The notes beneath the pieces were generated by a model. The model had not been told where the DNA came from, did no database searches, and was given only the letters and a program-made list of their open reading frames with translations. The translations under genes were made by a program, and so were the position numbers. DNA of 64,000 nt from Dictyoglomus turgidum DSM 6724 (GTDB lineage: Bacteria > Dictyoglomota > Dictyoglomia > Dictyoglomales > Dictyoglomaceae), in NCBI RefSeq assembly GCF_000021645.1, contig NC_011661.1, forward strand, positions 1,024,723 through 1,088,722, written 5' to 3'. This document shows positions 24,046-31,042 of this stretch, piece by piece; the stretch's first letter is position 1, and each line of letters opens with the position of its first letter.

Positions 24046-25041
24046 ATGGGGATGAGTTTATTTTCTTCTGAGGTTCCAATTCTAAGTATTGAATTTGGTA
24101 ATCCGTTAAGGGTCATTTTTGGGGGGAAGAGGAAAGATAAGAAGGTTGTAATTAAAAATTTTGCATTAGAAACTCTTCCACCAGAAATTATTCAAGGTGG
24201 TCAATTAAACAATTCAGATTATCTTTTAGAAGTGCTCAAGAGTATTTTAAAGAGGTTTAAATTAAAATCGGGAAAAACTTTAATATCCATACCAGCCCAA
24301 AATGTAATTGTGAGGTTCTTTAATTTTCCTTACATGCCTGAAGAAGAACTTAGGGAGTCAATAAAGTGGGAGCTTGAAAGATATGTTCCTCTTTCACCTG
24401 AGGATATAAATTATGATATACAGGTTGTATCTTTGGTAGAGAGAGGAGATATAAAAGAAAGTAGAGTGATGCTTGTGGCGGTTCCTAAGGAAGTTTTAAG
24501 TCCTTATCTTGATGTGGTTAAAAAACTGAATCTTGATCCTGATTTAGTAGATGTTAGTGTTTTTTCAGCGGTGAGAACAGTGATTATGAATAGAAAAGAC
24601 ATTCCTAAGGGAAATACTATATACCTTTATACTCATGATAATGTGGCAGAATTTGTGGTGGCAAAAGAGAATCAGCCTTTATTTTTCAGAAGCACTGTTA
24701 TGGAGGAATGGAATCCACAAGAAGAAGTAGATGATTTGACCAAGTCTTTTATGCTTGAGGATTTTGTTAGAAAGATACAGGAGGCGGTAAATTTCTTCTA
24801 TATGCAATTTCCTGAAGAACACATAGATCAAGCCATAGTTACAGGGAGTAATGCTAAAAATAAGGACTTTATAGATCTTTTAGAGGCAATTCTCAATGTT
24901 AATACTGAAGTTTCTCCAGGTTCTTCGGTTAATATAAATGACTTATTAGTGTTGAATTTAAAAAAGCAGGATAAAGAGTTTTTAGGTGATATTTACTCCT
25001 GGGTTGTTCCCATCGGATTATTCTTCTGGGAGAGGTTATGA
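24046..25041 (+). CDS. pilM: Type IV pilus assembly protein PilM
   Basis: Actin-like cytoplasmic protein that binds the N-terminal tail of PilN and links the motor to the inner-membrane alignment complex. The 331-residue product has the PilM sequence pattern: LSIEFGNPLRVI near the start, LISIPAQNVIVRFFNFPYMPEEEL, IKWELERYVPLSPEDI and AVNFFYMQFP. It begins the pilM-N-O-P-Q run behind its own promoter. Confidence 0.92.
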   Translation: MGMSLFSSEVPILSIEFGNPLRVIFGGKRKDKKVVIKNFALETLPPEIIQGGQLNNSDYLLEVLKSILKRFKLKSGKTLISIPAQNVIVRFFNFPYMPEEELRESIKWELERYVPLSPEDINYDIQVVSLVERGDIKESRVMLVAVPKEVLSPYLDVVKKLNLDPDLVDVSVFSAVRTVIMNRKDIPKGNTIYLYTHDNVAEFVVAKENQPLFFRSTVMEEWNPQEEVDDLTKSFMLEDFVRKIQEAVNFFYMQFPEEHIDQAIVTGSNAKNKDFIDLLEAILNVNTEVSPGSSVNINDLLVLNLKKQDKEFLGDIYSWVVPIGLFFWERL

Positions 25042-25044
25042 ACC

Positions 25045-25599
25045 ATGTTTAGGATCAATTTACTGCCAAAAGAGGTTAAGAAAAAAGAGCCTATAAGATT
25101 ACCTTTTCTGGGCATATTAATTACAGTAGTAGGTTTAATTCTACTTCTTGGAGAAGTTATACTCTATTTTAATCTTTCTTCAGAGGTTACTAATTTGAGA
25201 AATGAAAATACGTCCTTGGAGTTTCAAATTAATGATCTTAAATCTAAGATCAATGAGCTTCAAAGGTTGCAGAGTATAAAGACCCAGTATGAGGAAAAGT
25301 TGAGGCTTGTAGATGAGATATCCAAAAGAGAAATATCTTGGCTTGATCTTTTTGAAACTTTGAATAGGATAACTCCTAAAAATTTATGGGTTAAGAGCTT
25401 TAATTTAGATTCCTCTGATAATATTAATATTGAAGGCTTCGCACTAAATTATAAAGAGATCGCTATATTTTTGGATCAACTTGATAAGAGTGATCTTGTG
25501 AAAAATGTTTCTTTGGGTTTTGCTCAAAAAGTAGGAGAACCACCTTTGGTTTCTATAAATTTTAGAATTGTGGCTCAATATAAGAGGGGTGAGCAATGA
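25045..25599 (+). CDS. pilN: Type IV pilus assembly protein PilN
   Basis: Bitopic inner-membrane protein. The 184-residue sequence starts with the conserved cytoplasmic INLLPKE motif that docks in PilM, followed by a transmembrane helix (about residues 20-43), a coiled coil (about 45-90) and a small ferredoxin-like periplasmic domain (ISWLDLFETLNRITPKNLWV onward). Starts three bases after pilM and overlaps pilO. Confidence 0.92.
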   Translation: MFRINLLPKEVKKKEPIRLPFLGILITVVGLILLLGEVILYFNLSSEVTNLRNENTSLEFQINDLKSKINELQRLQSIKTQYEEKLRLVDEISKREISWLDLFETLNRITPKNLWVKSFNLDSSDNINIEGFALNYKEIAIFLDQLDKSDLVKNVSLGFAQKVGEPPLVSINFRIVAQYKRGEQ

Positions 25600-26177
25600 A
25601 GATAAGTATAAACAAATGGGTTATAATTGGTATTATAATCTTTATAATCGCAATTGGTTTCTATTTTGTTTTCTACAAAGCTTTAGAGAATGAAAAAGTG
25701 GCTCTTACAGAGAGCATTGAAACTAACAGACAAATGCTTTTAAAATACCAACTTAGTTATAAGAAAAGTTTAGAGGAGTGGGAGAAATTTAAAGATTCTC
25801 TCCAAAGATTTGCCGAAATTCAACAAAAACTTCCTACTAAAGAAGATTTGCCAACTCTTTTAGCTTTTATTGAATCCATAGCTAAGAATTCTAAGCTCTC
25901 TATTAATAGCTTTAAACCATTACCTCCTGCGACTAAACAGGAAACTACAACTCAACAACAGGGAAAACAACCTCAACAAGAGCAAAAATCAACTTATGAG
26001 GAGAGATCTTATAGTCTTGATCTTCAGGGAAATTATGGTGGGTTTCTATTATTCTTGGCAAAATTAAAAACTGCACCGAGATTGATTCTTATGAAAGATC
26101 TAAAGATAGATCCTGTGGATGTAAGTGCAAAAGAGTTGAAATTTTCTTTTATTCTTTCAACTTTTATAACTAAATAG
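25596..26177 (+). CDS. pilO: Type IV pilus assembly protein PilO
   Basis: Partner of PilN in the alignment complex. The 193-residue protein has a short cytoplasmic start, one transmembrane helix at about 9-29, a coiled-coil region (about 35-80) and a periplasmic ferredoxin-like domain (LPTLLAFIESIAKNSKLSI, LDLQGNYGGFLLFLAKL). A Gln/Thr/Lys-rich linker (about residues 110-130) interrupts it. The ATG overlaps the pilN stop. Confidence 0.9.
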   Translation: MKISINKWVIIGIIIFIIAIGFYFVFYKALENEKVALTESIETNRQMLLKYQLSYKKSLEEWEKFKDSLQRFAEIQQKLPTKEDLPTLLAFIESIAKNSKLSINSFKPLPPATKQETTTQQQGKQPQQEQKSTYEERSYSLDLQGNYGGFLLFLAKLKTAPRLILMKDLKIDPVDVSAKELKFSFILSTFITK

Positions 26178-26190
26178 GTGGGAAAGAAAA

Positions 26191-26775
26191 ATGGATTTAA
26201 AAAGTTTGTTTAATAATCCAAAACAAAGAATGATGTTTTTAGTTATTCTTCTTGTTTTAGTTGGTCTTATTGGAGGATATTACGTCATCACCAATTATAT
26301 ATTACCACCATCGGAAGAAACTGTGGTGACAACTCCTAAGCGAGTGAGAACTACTCAGGAAACTTATACTTTAGCTCAAGTGCTTGAGACATTAACCCAA
26401 CAAACTGCAGTAGTATTTACTTATTCAACAGTAGAGCTCGGTAGGAGTAATCCATTTATTCCTGTTATTGATCTTACTCCTAAAAAACCCTCACTGGTTC
26501 AATCTTCACCAGCTGCCTCCAGCAGTGTTAATATTTCTGTGACTCCTAAGGTGTCTTCAGAACCAATTAAAACATGGTACAGTGGTTTTAAGTTAACGGG
26601 AATTGTAAGGGGGAGAGATCGAAGTTATGCTATTATTGAAGAGGGAGAGAGAGGATATGTATTGAGGGAAGGAGATCTTTTAAGAAGTGACATTTATGTT
26701 TCTAAAATTAATGATAATTCGGTGATTTTAAAGAGGGGTAATGCTTACGCCACATTAAAATTGGGAGGTGAATGA
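26191..26775 (+). CDS. pilP: Probable PilP-like pilus assembly protein
   Basis: 194 residues between pilO and the secretin gene. It has an N-terminal transmembrane helix (about 14-34), a Pro/Ser/Thr-rich linker and a C-terminal beta domain (FKLTGIVRGRDRSYAIIEEGERGYVLREGDLL) resembling the PilP/GspC homology-region domain that contacts secretin N-domains. Classical PilP is a lipoprotein; here no lipobox cysteine is present, so the anchor is a helix, as in GspC. Family assignment rests on order plus the C-terminal pattern. Confidence 0.8.
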   Translation: MDLKSLFNNPKQRMMFLVILLVLVGLIGGYYVITNYILPPSEETVVTTPKRVRTTQETYTLAQVLETLTQQTAVVFTYSTVELGRSNPFIPVIDLTPKKPSLVQSSPAASSSVNISVTPKVSSEPIKTWYSGFKLTGIVRGRDRSYAIIEEGERGYVLREGDLLRSDIYVSKINDNSVILKRGNAYATLKLGGE

Positions 26776-26776
26776 T

Positions 26777-29700
26777 TTGATATTTAAAAAGGGAAAGGAC
26801 TTGGTTTTTTATTGTGTTATTTTAGTTTTTCTTTTTACACTATTATATGCTCAAACAGGAAATCTTAGCTTAGTAGGAGTACAAGTAGATGAAGTAGGTG
26901 CAAGTTTCAACATTGGATTTTATTTTTCTCCTGCAAGTTCGGCTCCTAAATTTGATATACAACAGAAAGACAATAAATTAGTTATTACTTTTTTTAATAC
27001 AAATATTAAGATGCCCTCTAAATCTATAGATATAAATAAGGCTTTTCTTACTAATATTGAACTCGTTCAAAGTGGGAGTAATGCCGTTGCCAATATAAAT
27101 TTCGTAGGTATTATACCTACTTATGTCTATAATTCAGGGTTAGGAACTTTAAAATTGGTATTAAATCCTTCAACATCCACCGTTTCAGCCATATCCTCTA
27201 CTGAACCGAGCACTAAAACAGCCGAAGTAAATCTATTAAGTGTAAATATTGATAAAAATTATAGGCCAAATTTAATTATTTTGAATTTTTCTGATAATGT
27301 GCCTGAATATAAAGTATCTTTGCTTAAAAATCCTTTAAGACTTGTCATTGATGTTAATAACACAATAAATAAAGTGGCAACAAAAAGTATTTCTGTAAAT
27401 TCAAGTCCAATTCTTGATGTCAGAGTCTCTCAGTTTACTATTAAACCTTATGTTACAAGAATAGTAGTAGACTTAAAAACATCCTATCCTCAATTGTTAG
27501 TTAAAGATTATCAAAATAAATTATACATTGGGACTTCTGAGGTATTGGCGAAAGTAGTGCCTGCTTCTCAAAAGGTAGTAGCAGAAATACCTAAAACCGA
27601 AGAGGCGCCAAAGGTAACAGAGGTTAAAACTACTACCATGGAAGAAAAACCTATAGAGAAGCCCCAGGAGACAGTAAGTAAACCCGTAGAGGTAAAGGAT
27701 AAATTTCAACAGAGGATATCAGTCTCTTTTGATAGGGCAGAGATAAGGGATGTATTAAAAGCAATGGGACAACTTGTAGGATTGAATATTATTACCGATA
27801 TAGGAGTACAGGGAAGGATAAGTGTTTACCTTAAAGATATTCCTTTTAAAGATGCTTTTTATGCCTTACTCGCTTCCTCAGATTTAGGGTATATTCAGCA
27901 AGGTGAGATAATCATTGTAGCTAATCTTGATAAGCTACAAAAAATAGAAAGTAGAGATTTGATGACAAAAGTTTATCAATTGAAGTATTTTGAAAGTCAA
28001 AAAGCGAAAGACATTTTAAGTAAAATCTCTAAGACTGCGATCTTTGATTCTGACGATTCAAGAAATTGGCTTATAGTTTCTGCTCCACCGTCAGAATTTG
28101 CAAAAATAGAGAATACAATTAAAACCTTGGATATCCCGTCAGAAAGTATAGCAGGAGCTAAAAATTTAGGAAAAGTTATATTAGAAAAAAGTGAAGATAC
28201 CTATCTTGTGACTTTAACTGCAAAGGGCGACGATATAAAAGATATTCTTCAAGAAATAGTTCAAAAGTCCGGTAAGAATATTATCTTTTCAAAAGATGTC
28301 TCGGGAGGGGTTTATTTAACCCTTAACAGAGTTCCTCTTGATAGGGCTGTCGATTTGATAGTAAGGAGTACTGGATATATTTATGAGGTTAGAGAGGGAG
28401 GAGTAATATTGGTGAGTGCTCCTAAGGCTGAGGGAGTTCCTTCACCTATAATTGAGATTAAAGAGCTTGTTAAGGTTGAAAAAATTGGGGATGTATTTTA
28501 TGTTACTGCAAGTCTTAAGAAGTCAGATATTAGAGATGTTTTGCAGGAAATTGCAAGTAAAACAGATTTGAATTTTATTATAGATCCTAAGGTTTCTGGT
28601 ACAGTAGATCTGTTTGTTAATAAAGTACCTCTTGATGAGGTTTTGACCATAATTCAGAGACTTGCTAATTTTGATATGGAAAAAGTTGGCAAGACTTATT
28701 ATATAAAACCTAAGGAAGTACAGACAGCAACAGTTCCTCAAATAATAAGTACTAAGTTATATGTGTTGAGATATATAACTCTCCAAGATATTTTGAGGGT
28801 AGGGGGGAGTTTAGTAAAGAACTTAAGTTTGAGCTATGATGATAAGACTAAGCTGCTAATTGCGCAAGGTAAGGAAGATGACTTGAAGGTATTGGATGAC
28901 CTAATAAGTAGGATAGATGTAGAGAAGAAGGAAGCGGTAGTTGCGAAGGAGCTACTTACAGTAGAGAGGGAAGGGGATAAGGTATATGTGAGTTGTGATT
29001 TAAGGAGTGCAGATATAAGGGAAGTATTGAGGGAACTTGGGAAGAAGGCAGATATAAACTTTGTAATAGATCAGAAGGTGACAGGGCAGATTGATCTCTA
29101 TCTAAATAGGGTGGAACTTCCTGAGGTATTGAACATAATTCAAAGGGTAGGGAAGTTAAGCATAACTACTGAAGATAAAGTGACTTATGTGAAGCCATAT
29201 GAAGAGAAGGTAACAGTACCTGTAGAGGTAGCAAAGACCAAGATATATGCATTAAAATACATTACCTTATCTGATATAGAGAGGGTAGGAGGGAGTTTAG
29301 TAAAGAACTTAAGTTTGAGCTATGATGATAAGACTAAGCTGCTAATTGCGCAAGGTAAGGAAGATGACTTGAAGGTATTGGATGACCTAATAAGTAGGAT
29401 AGATGTAGAGAAGAAGGAAGCGGTAGTTGCGAAGGAGCTACTTACAGTAGAGAGGGAAGGGGATAAGGTATATGTGAGTTGTGATTTAAGGAGTGCAGAT
29501 ATAAGGGAAGTATTGAGGGAACTTGGGAAGAAGGCAGATATAAACTTTGTAATAGATCAGAAGGTGACAGGGCAGATTGATCTCTATCTAAATAGGGTGG
29601 AACTTCCTGAGGTATTGAACATAATTCAAAAGGTAGGGAAGTTAAGCATAACTACTGAAGATAAAGTGACTTATGTGAAGCCATATGAAGAGAAGGTAAC

Positions 29701-31042
29701 AGTACCTGTAGAGGTAGCAAAGACCAAGATATATGCATTAAAATACATTACCTTATCTGATATAGAGAGGGTAGGAGGGAGTTTAGTAAAGAACTTAAGT
29801 TTGAGCTATGATGATAAGACTAAGCTGCTAATTGCGCAAGGTAAGGAAGATGACTTGAAGGTATTGGATGACCTAATAAGTAGGATAGATGTAGAGAAGA
29901 AGGAAGCGGTAGTTGCGAAGGAGCTGCTTACAGTAGAGAGGGAAGGGGATAAGGTATATGTGAGTTGTGATTTAAGGAGTGCAGATATAAGGGAAGTATT
30001 GAGGGAACTTGGGAAGAAGGCAGATATAAACTTTGTAATAGATCAGAAGGTGACAGGGCAGATCGATCTCTATCTAAATAGGGTGGAACTTCCTGAGACT
30101 CTTGAGATATTAAGTAGAATCACTAATATTTCCTTTGAGAAAGTTGGTTCCGCAACCTTTGTCAAACCCTTAAATACAACTGTAACTACAGCAAAAGAGG
30201 GCACTCCTACTGTTACAAAAGAATACAAGCTAAAGTATATATCCTTGGATACTTTAAAATCTGTAGTATCAGGAATAGCAAAGGATGTAAGCTTCTATTA
30301 TGATCAAACTTCAGGTCTTTTGTTGGTACAAGGGCCAGCAGATCAAGTTTCCTCTGTAGAAAGTATGATAGCGAAGCTTGATAAGCCTACTCCTCAAGTA
30401 AAAATTGATGTACAGGTAATTGAAGTATCAAGAGAAAATGTTAAGGATATTGGTATAGAGTGGAGTACAGGTAGTATTTCTACTGGATTACAAATTACAG
30501 CTAACCTGGGGTGGCAGGATCTCAGGGTAAGTATTGTGAATCCAGGACAAATTAGTGCTAACATTAGGGCATTAGAAACTCAAAATAAAGCTAGAATACT
30601 TGCTCAACCCAGTATGACTACTTTAAGTGGTAAGGCTACAAGGATCATGATTGGTGATAGAGTTCCATTAATCTCCTATGATGCTCAAGGTAATAGACAA
30701 GTAAGTTTTGTGGATGTAGGTATCATCTTAAATGTCACTCCTACAGTAAATGCTGATGGAACCATAACAGCTAATATAAATCCTCAGGTTAGTACAATTC
30801 AAGGCTATGTAAGTGATGTGCCTATAATTTCTACTCGTGAGGCTCAGACAATTGTCAATCTAAAAAATGGTGAAACTCTTGCTCTTGGAGGTTTGTTGAG
30901 ACAAGAGGAAATAGATAGTATGTCAAAAGTACCACTTCTTGGAGATATACCTATACTAGGAGAACTGTTTAAGGCAAGAAAGACTCAGAAAGTGGAAAGA
31001 GAGCTTATTATACTAATTACACCAAAACTTATTGAGCAATAA
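26777..31042 (+). CDS. pilQ: Type IV pilus secretin PilQ, extra long with repeated N-domains
   Basis: Outer-membrane channel for the pilus, 1421 residues, where PilQ is usually 450-900. Order: signal peptide (about 1-25), two AMIN-like domains (about 30-145 and 155-265), a Pro/Glu/Lys linker, alternating STN (N0) and secretin N1-type domains (about 315-1180), and the C-terminal secretin gate (about 1208-1421; VPLLGDIPILGELF, ELIILITPKLIE). Residues 677-1107 are encoded by 486-bp near-identical tandem DNA repeats. Start: TTG at 26777 after GGGAGGTGA; an in-frame GTG at 26768 overlaps that site. Confidence 0.93.
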   Translation: MIFKKGKDLVFYCVILVFLFTLLYAQTGNLSLVGVQVDEVGASFNIGFYFSPASSAPKFDIQQKDNKLVITFFNTNIKMPSKSIDINKAFLTNIELVQSGSNAVANINFVGIIPTYVYNSGLGTLKLVLNPSTSTVSAISSTEPSTKTAEVNLLSVNIDKNYRPNLIILNFSDNVPEYKVSLLKNPLRLVIDVNNTINKVATKSISVNSSPILDVRVSQFTIKPYVTRIVVDLKTSYPQLLVKDYQNKLYIGTSEVLAKVVPASQKVVAEIPKTEEAPKVTEVKTTTMEEKPIEKPQETVSKPVEVKDKFQQRISVSFDRAEIRDVLKAMGQLVGLNIITDIGVQGRISVYLKDIPFKDAFYALLASSDLGYIQQGEIIIVANLDKLQKIESRDLMTKVYQLKYFESQKAKDILSKISKTAIFDSDDSRNWLIVSAPPSEFAKIENTIKTLDIPSESIAGAKNLGKVILEKSEDTYLVTLTAKGDDIKDILQEIVQKSGKNIIFSKDVSGGVYLTLNRVPLDRAVDLIVRSTGYIYEVREGGVILVSAPKAEGVPSPIIEIKELVKVEKIGDVFYVTASLKKSDIRDVLQEIASKTDLNFIIDPKVSGTVDLFVNKVPLDEVLTIIQRLANFDMEKVGKTYYIKPKEVQTATVPQIISTKLYVLRYITLQDILRVGGSLVKNLSLSYDDKTKLLIAQGKEDDLKVLDDLISRIDVEKKEAVVAKELLTVEREGDKVYVSCDLRSADIREVLRELGKKADINFVIDQKVTGQIDLYLNRVELPEVLNIIQRVGKLSITTEDKVTYVKPYEEKVTVPVEVAKTKIYALKYITLSDIERVGGSLVKNLSLSYDDKTKLLIAQGKEDDLKVLDDLISRIDVEKKEAVVAKELLTVEREGDKVYVSCDLRSADIREVLRELGKKADINFVIDQKVTGQIDLYLNRVELPEVLNIIQKVGKLSITTEDKVTYVKPYEEKVTVPVEVAKTKIYALKYITLSDIERVGGSLVKNLSLSYDDKTKLLIAQGKEDDLKVLDDLISRIDVEKKEAVVAKELLTVEREGDKVYVSCDLRSADIREVLRELGKKADINFVIDQKVTGQIDLYLNRVELPETLEILSRITNISFEKVGSATFVKPLNTTVTTAKEGTPTVTKEYKLKYISLDTLKSVVSGIAKDVSFYYDQTSGLLLVQGPADQVSSVESMIAKLDKPTPQVKIDVQVIEVSRENVKDIGIEWSTGSISTGLQITANLGWQDLRVSIVNPGQISANIRALETQNKARILAQPSMTTLSGKATRIMIGDRVPLISYDAQGNRQVSFVDVGIILNVTPTVNADGTITANINPQVSTIQGYVSDVPIISTREAQTIVNLKNGETLALGGLLRQEEIDSMSKVPLLGDIPILGELFKARKTQKVERELIILITPKLIEQ
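28805..30097 (+). repeat. 486-bp tandem repeat array within pilQ (2.66 copies)
   Basis: Copies begin at 28805, 29291 and 29777; the third stops matching after 30097 (321 bases). Copies differ at only a few positions, e.g. AGG at 29144-29146 versus AAG at 29630-29632 (Arg/Lys) and a silent A/G change at 29440 versus 29926. Each 162-residue unit encodes one N1-type and one N0/STN-type secretin domain. More diverged relatives of the unit flank the array, so it grew from an older domain series. Confidence 0.97.

Follow-up and report, generated by a model that had tools for sequence, protein, structure and literature searches.

The number of rings in a secretin is usually regarded as fixed for a given system. 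In the Dictyoglomaceae, the type IV pilus secretin PilQ carries ring-type domain pairs that are homogenised and apparently recombining, and its gene opens two testable questions: what sets the length of a channel that spans the cell envelope, and does secretin length follow the width of the periplasm? Here we describe the array of domain pairs in Dictyoglomus turgidum DSM 6724, its evolution among relatives and the readings that may account for it.

The pilQ locus and its 486-bp array

The D. turgidum genome is a single contig of 1,855,560 bp, from which we analysed a stretch of 64 kb (the window, to which coordinates refer unless otherwise given; all window features described lie on the forward strand). 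We identified pilQ (26768..31042) as an ORF of 1424 amino acids with a GTG start, matching the type IV pilus secretin profile TIGR02515 at 380 bits (cut-off 284) and containing Pfam domains in the order AMIN, N0/STN, Secretin_N (N1) and C-terminal Secretin. Upstream of it lie a pilM-like gene (24046-25041), whose match to the PilM profile TIGR01175 (99.9 bits) falls under the cut-off of 133, genes at the pilN (25045-25599) and pilO (25596-26177) positions, both named by size and order only, and a gene at the pilP position (26191-26775) with a weak GspC-like match. The gene at the pilO position also contains a short, glutamine-rich 21-bp tandem repeat (25936-25993).

PilQ has the sole secretin domain found across the D. 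turgidum genome, in which we also identified four matches to T2SSE-type ATPases and 15 to pilin-type leaders. The presence of these ATPases and leaders makes a working pilus system likely as far as sequence can indicate, and with four such ATPases to one secretin, PilQ may serve two or more pilus-type assembly sets. Two pilin-type leaders (genome coordinates 905472-905552 and 906062-906142) lie 590 bp apart with equal scores, in frames both 143 long, and are possibly a recent tandem pilin duplication.

Eleven N-type domains, six N0-like and five N1-like, were assigned in PilQ from Pfam matches and sequence. The first N0-N1 pair (pair 1, 27692..28150; PF21305 and PF03958) is followed by a lone STN/N0-like domain (28151..28462; PF07660) and by pair 3 (28463..28930), which has a diverged N0 and an N1 mostly within the array. 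Pair 4 (28931..29416) is a full 162-codon unit, as is pair 5 (29417..29902, placed by coordinates), and the two are the same save for single-base differences. Pair 6 (29903..30394) has an N0 whose first part lies within the array and a diverged N1 adjoining the secretin, or outer-membrane channel, domain (30569..31033, amino acids 1268-1422; PF00263).

The only long-period tandem repeat that TRF reports in the window is the pilQ array (28795..30097), with a period of 486 bp, 2.7 copies and 99% matches. Comparison of the sequence with itself at a lag of 486 gave mismatches at 4 of 817 positions (28795 to 29611), namely 28804, 29145, 29440 and 29578. The extent of this identity defines a homogenised 331-nt tract present in three copies (28795..29125, 29281..29611 and 29767..30097), the first of which covers most of the pair-3 N1 and the first part of the pair-4 N0. 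The near-identical block starts within the pair-3 N1 and stops within the pair-6 N0, its reading frame is open throughout, and every unit codes for an N0/STN-like domain and an N1-like domain. Diverged copies flank it on both sides, reaching up to ~65% DNA identity upstream and dropping to ~20-50% per 50-nt block downstream. The first-pass annotation of this DNA had described near-identical in-frame 486-bp repeats in pilQ, a 162-codon unit of one N1-type and one N0/STN-type domain and more diverged flanking copies of that pair, all in agreement with the TRF, Pfam and lag analyses; of the borders it placed at 28805 and 30097 the end is exact, while the start falls 10 bases inside the true border at 28795.

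Structure prediction of the unit, which the same annotation had proposed, returned N0-like and N1-like folds. An AlphaFold2 model of two units (mean pLDDT 75) has a repeated N0-like to N1-like pattern, with an inter-domain arrangement that is unreliable at its pTM of 0.36, and the best PDB matches of the repeat unit in Foldseek were the secretin N-domains of PulD, XcpQ, Neisseria PilQ and GspD. A structure prediction of amino acids 309-1424 had a mean pLDDT of 36 and this model was set aside.

Copy number and concerted evolution in the Dictyoglomaceae

We compared pilQ among relatives, with one genome per species. The complete genome of a congener (G002, 1,959,987 bp), which we take to be that of D. 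thermophilum, encodes a PilQ with exactly one 162-codon unit fewer in the array region, so that the two complete genomes hold three tracts in D. turgidum and two in G002. The metagenome-assembled genome RSWP16 (G001) has its own 495-bp repeat, which runs off the contig end and includes two internal connectors, indicating at least three tracts. In a second genus (g2), G004 carries N1 in three copies of 98-99% DNA identity, split over two contigs whose assembly breaks off within the array. The two N1 copies of G005 share 96% identity along 165 nt, rising to 99% in the best 150-nt stretch; a further relative, G006, has a run of N within the array. Counts in these drafts are minima, and those of G005 and G006 may be collapsed. 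The repeat period in five Dictyoglomaceae genomes is 486 bp (D. turgidum), 486, 495, 489 and 492 bp, and the array is present in every Dictyoglomaceae pilQ assembled through it, in two genera. The tract borders have the same position in D. turgidum and G002 and a different one in genus g2. A scan of genome contigs for relatives returned one, a Dictyoglomaceae MAG, and none were found in a scan of viral contigs.

Copy number therefore differs between species by a unit that, at the level of sequence, is an in-frame domain pair, and it appears to differ at least once within each of the two genera. Comparison of pilQ among relatives had been suggested in the first-pass annotation, which held that the number of periplasmic rings, and hence the length of the vestibule, could change by recombination between repeats; the tract counts (three in D. 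turgidum, two in G002, at least three in each of two draft relatives) show variation in the number of repeats between species. Genus g2 pilQ also has an extra N1 directly behind another N1 without an intervening N0, indicating that domain order, besides domain number, differs between genera. Assemblies that end or carry N inside the array include G001 (contigs C128 and C32), G003 (C42), G004 (C14 and C12) and G006, and in short-read assemblies of Dictyoglomaceae pilQ is likely to be broken, short or collapsed.

Repeats of such lengths assemble poorly, and the breaks and runs of N in several draft relatives illustrate this, which raises the question of whether the extra D. turgidum unit, or the identity of its copies, results from misassembly. 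The D. turgidum genome was however finished, with repeat correction, from Sanger reads at 20x drawn from 3-kb and 8-kb libraries together with 454 data (PMC5167688), its copies bear private differences, and G002, an independent complete genome, carries a near-identical array of its own in which residues specific to that species occur. On these three grounds we rejected an assembly artefact, which we regard as very improbable.

The copies are far more alike within a species than between species. Over a 109-codon tract, dS is 0.015-0.045 among the copies within D. turgidum and 0.015 within G002, with dN of 0 in both, whereas between D. turgidum and G002 the same tract has a dS of 0.60-0.67 and a dN of 0.033; the remainder of pilQ has a dS of 1.0-1.2 between the two. 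Selection on the protein sequence alone is ruled out as the source of this identity, since silent sites are homogenised too, and identity of the copies predating the species split is ruled out by the dS of ~0.6 between species in the same tract. The first-pass annotation had attributed the array to recent duplication or gene conversion beyond protein-level selection, and the small within-species dS bears this out. Species-specific residues occur in all copies of a species, for example DDKTK in one and DDKTR in the other, and a 3-codon insertion is common to both sequenced G001 tracts, placing homogenisation after the species split. Grouping the copies by species in a tree improves the log-likelihood by 237 units over grouping them by position (AU p 1.2e-4); as recombination breaks the assumptions of the tree, this serves as supporting evidence only. 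The minute dS within species beside a dS of ~0.6 between them establishes, so far as sequences record it, that the array evolves in concert and has been homogenised independently in each lineage after the species split.

A proposed mechanism and its bearing on PilQ length

We propose that copy number would change through recombination between copies of the shared 331-nt tract, which spans most of an N1 and the beginning of the N0 behind it. It follows from the sequence that each equal-register exchange would gain or lose exactly 162 codons, one unit, with the frame, the domain boundaries and the end pieces left intact, such that every product would keep N0-N1 pair 1 at one end and, at the other, the final N1 adjoining the secretin domain. 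Gene conversion or unequal exchange would hold the copies alike within each species.

Because N-domains stack as rings in known secretins (PMC5745081), each N0-N1 pair would add two stacked periplasmic rings, for a putative count of ~11 rings in D. turgidum PilQ and 9 in G002 PilQ. Taking Thermus PilQ as a guide (350 A with six rings) and allowing roughly 25-40 A per ring, we estimate a length of ~40-55 nm for D. turgidum PilQ and a change of ~5-8 nm with every unit gained or lost. Ring formation is thus predicted, and the array would set the length of PilQ. Dictyoglomales are reported, in a review that draws on Hoppert et al. 2012, to have an outer membrane kept at a distance by ~80 nm pegs and to form rotund bodies (PMC7203096); pegs of the length given there would suit a long PilQ, much as has been argued for Thermus. 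With less certainty, the array may be retained because PilQ needs to reach across an exceptionally wide periplasm, with the repeat number acting as a length setting for it. Overall we consider it probable that this type IVa PilQ contains a concertedly evolving, copy-number-variable N0-N1 block that is exchanged by way of the 331-nt tract and perhaps kept for the length it gives PilQ. A more tentative proposal, which we hold to be doubtful, is that the array is a recombination-tuned molecular ruler in which unequal exchange of identical N0-N1 units fits the channel, in two-ring steps, to a periplasm tens of nm wide, and which possibly varies within populations.

The hypothesis of an adaptive length role has as its main rival neutral turnover, whereby recombination among duplicated in-frame units enlarges, shrinks and evens out the array, any number is tolerated and length has no adaptive meaning. 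Homogenisation alone requires no selection on length, and copy number changes between close relatives that have no known difference in their envelopes; the one-unit difference between D. turgidum and the presumed D. thermophilum, accompanied by no known difference in envelope spacing, fits neutral turnover equally well. Turnover of this kind is less easily reconciled with the retention of the array in all Dictyoglomaceae assembled through it, across two genera, always in frame, always as whole domain pairs and with very low dN, or with an N-domain stack that is old though its copies are young, and we judge it a possible, if rather unlikely, full account.

The extra N0 domains might instead be added docking sites for PilP or another partner and not length elements. 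PilP binds the N0 domain of Neisseria meningitidis PilQ (PMC3441751), and there are six N0-like domains in D. turgidum PilQ. The N0 of pair 1 is however the most conserved between genera, at 73-79% DNA identity, against 50-57% when the array N0s are compared with those of genus g2, which may not be their true orthologues; with that uncertainty over orthology, such divergence is unlike one shared binding surface. We regard docking as improbable.

Comparison with other secretins

Over the best 150 nt, ungapped self-identity reaches 0.99-1.00 in five Dictyoglomaceae genomes, with D. turgidum at 1.00, and is at most 0.61 in 29 distinct secretin loci from outside the family, many of which have only ~1.5 kb of flank and hence include some incomplete N-terminal regions. 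The self-identity scan found no near-identical array in any of these 29 loci, and their low values exclude chance as the source of the array. Using an N0 model on 117 genomes, four or more matches per frame occurred only in Dictyoglomaceae among the matches listed. Many N1 domains in one frame also occur outside the family, with five in G035; what is unusual is therefore that N0 and N1 alternate in a homogenised array. That G035 frame (L040:1232-7918, reverse strand) spans 2229 codons and combines its five Secretin_N domains with a secretin domain and C-terminal helix-hairpin-helix motifs in an unusual fusion, and G024 has a 1647-codon secretin frame (L041:957-5897, forward strand) with AMIN, three Secretin_N domains and a helix-hairpin-helix behind the secretin domain. 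No earlier account of PilQ repeats in Dictyoglomus or of tandem N-domain arrays in secretins turned up in the literature searched. The array is a real variant within a known protein family.

Among known systems the closest in architecture to D. turgidum PilQ include Thermus thermophilus PilQ, likewise a type IV pilus secretin with N-domains above the usual number in a wide-periplasm thermophile. Its rings N0 to N5 stack and span the periplasm, and its six rings were termed unusual and tied by the authors to a wide periplasm (PMC5745081). The 757 residues of Thermus PilQ hold a single N0 and five N1-type rings, whereas D. turgidum PilQ has alternating N0-like and N1-like domains (6 + 5) in 1424 residues, and the near-identical DNA of some pairs, varying in number, is a trait of D. 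turgidum PilQ unlike Thermus PilQ. The type II secretins GspD and PulD (N0-N1-N2-N3) also stack their N-domains ahead of the channel and are among the top fold matches of the repeat unit, but have one N0 and fixed N1-N3 without near-identical copies. The known repeats of N. meningitidis PilQ are short basic peptides rather than folded domain pairs. This T4aP secretin resembles D. turgidum PilQ in its order of two N-terminal beta (AMIN-type) domains, N0, N1 and secretin domain (PMC3441751). It differs in having a single N0 and a single N1. Intragenic tandem repeats that evolve in concert are in general more alike within species than between them and shift in copy number; what sets the pilQ array apart is a unit made up of a folded domain pair that probably forms rings and belongs to a channel crossing the cell envelope.
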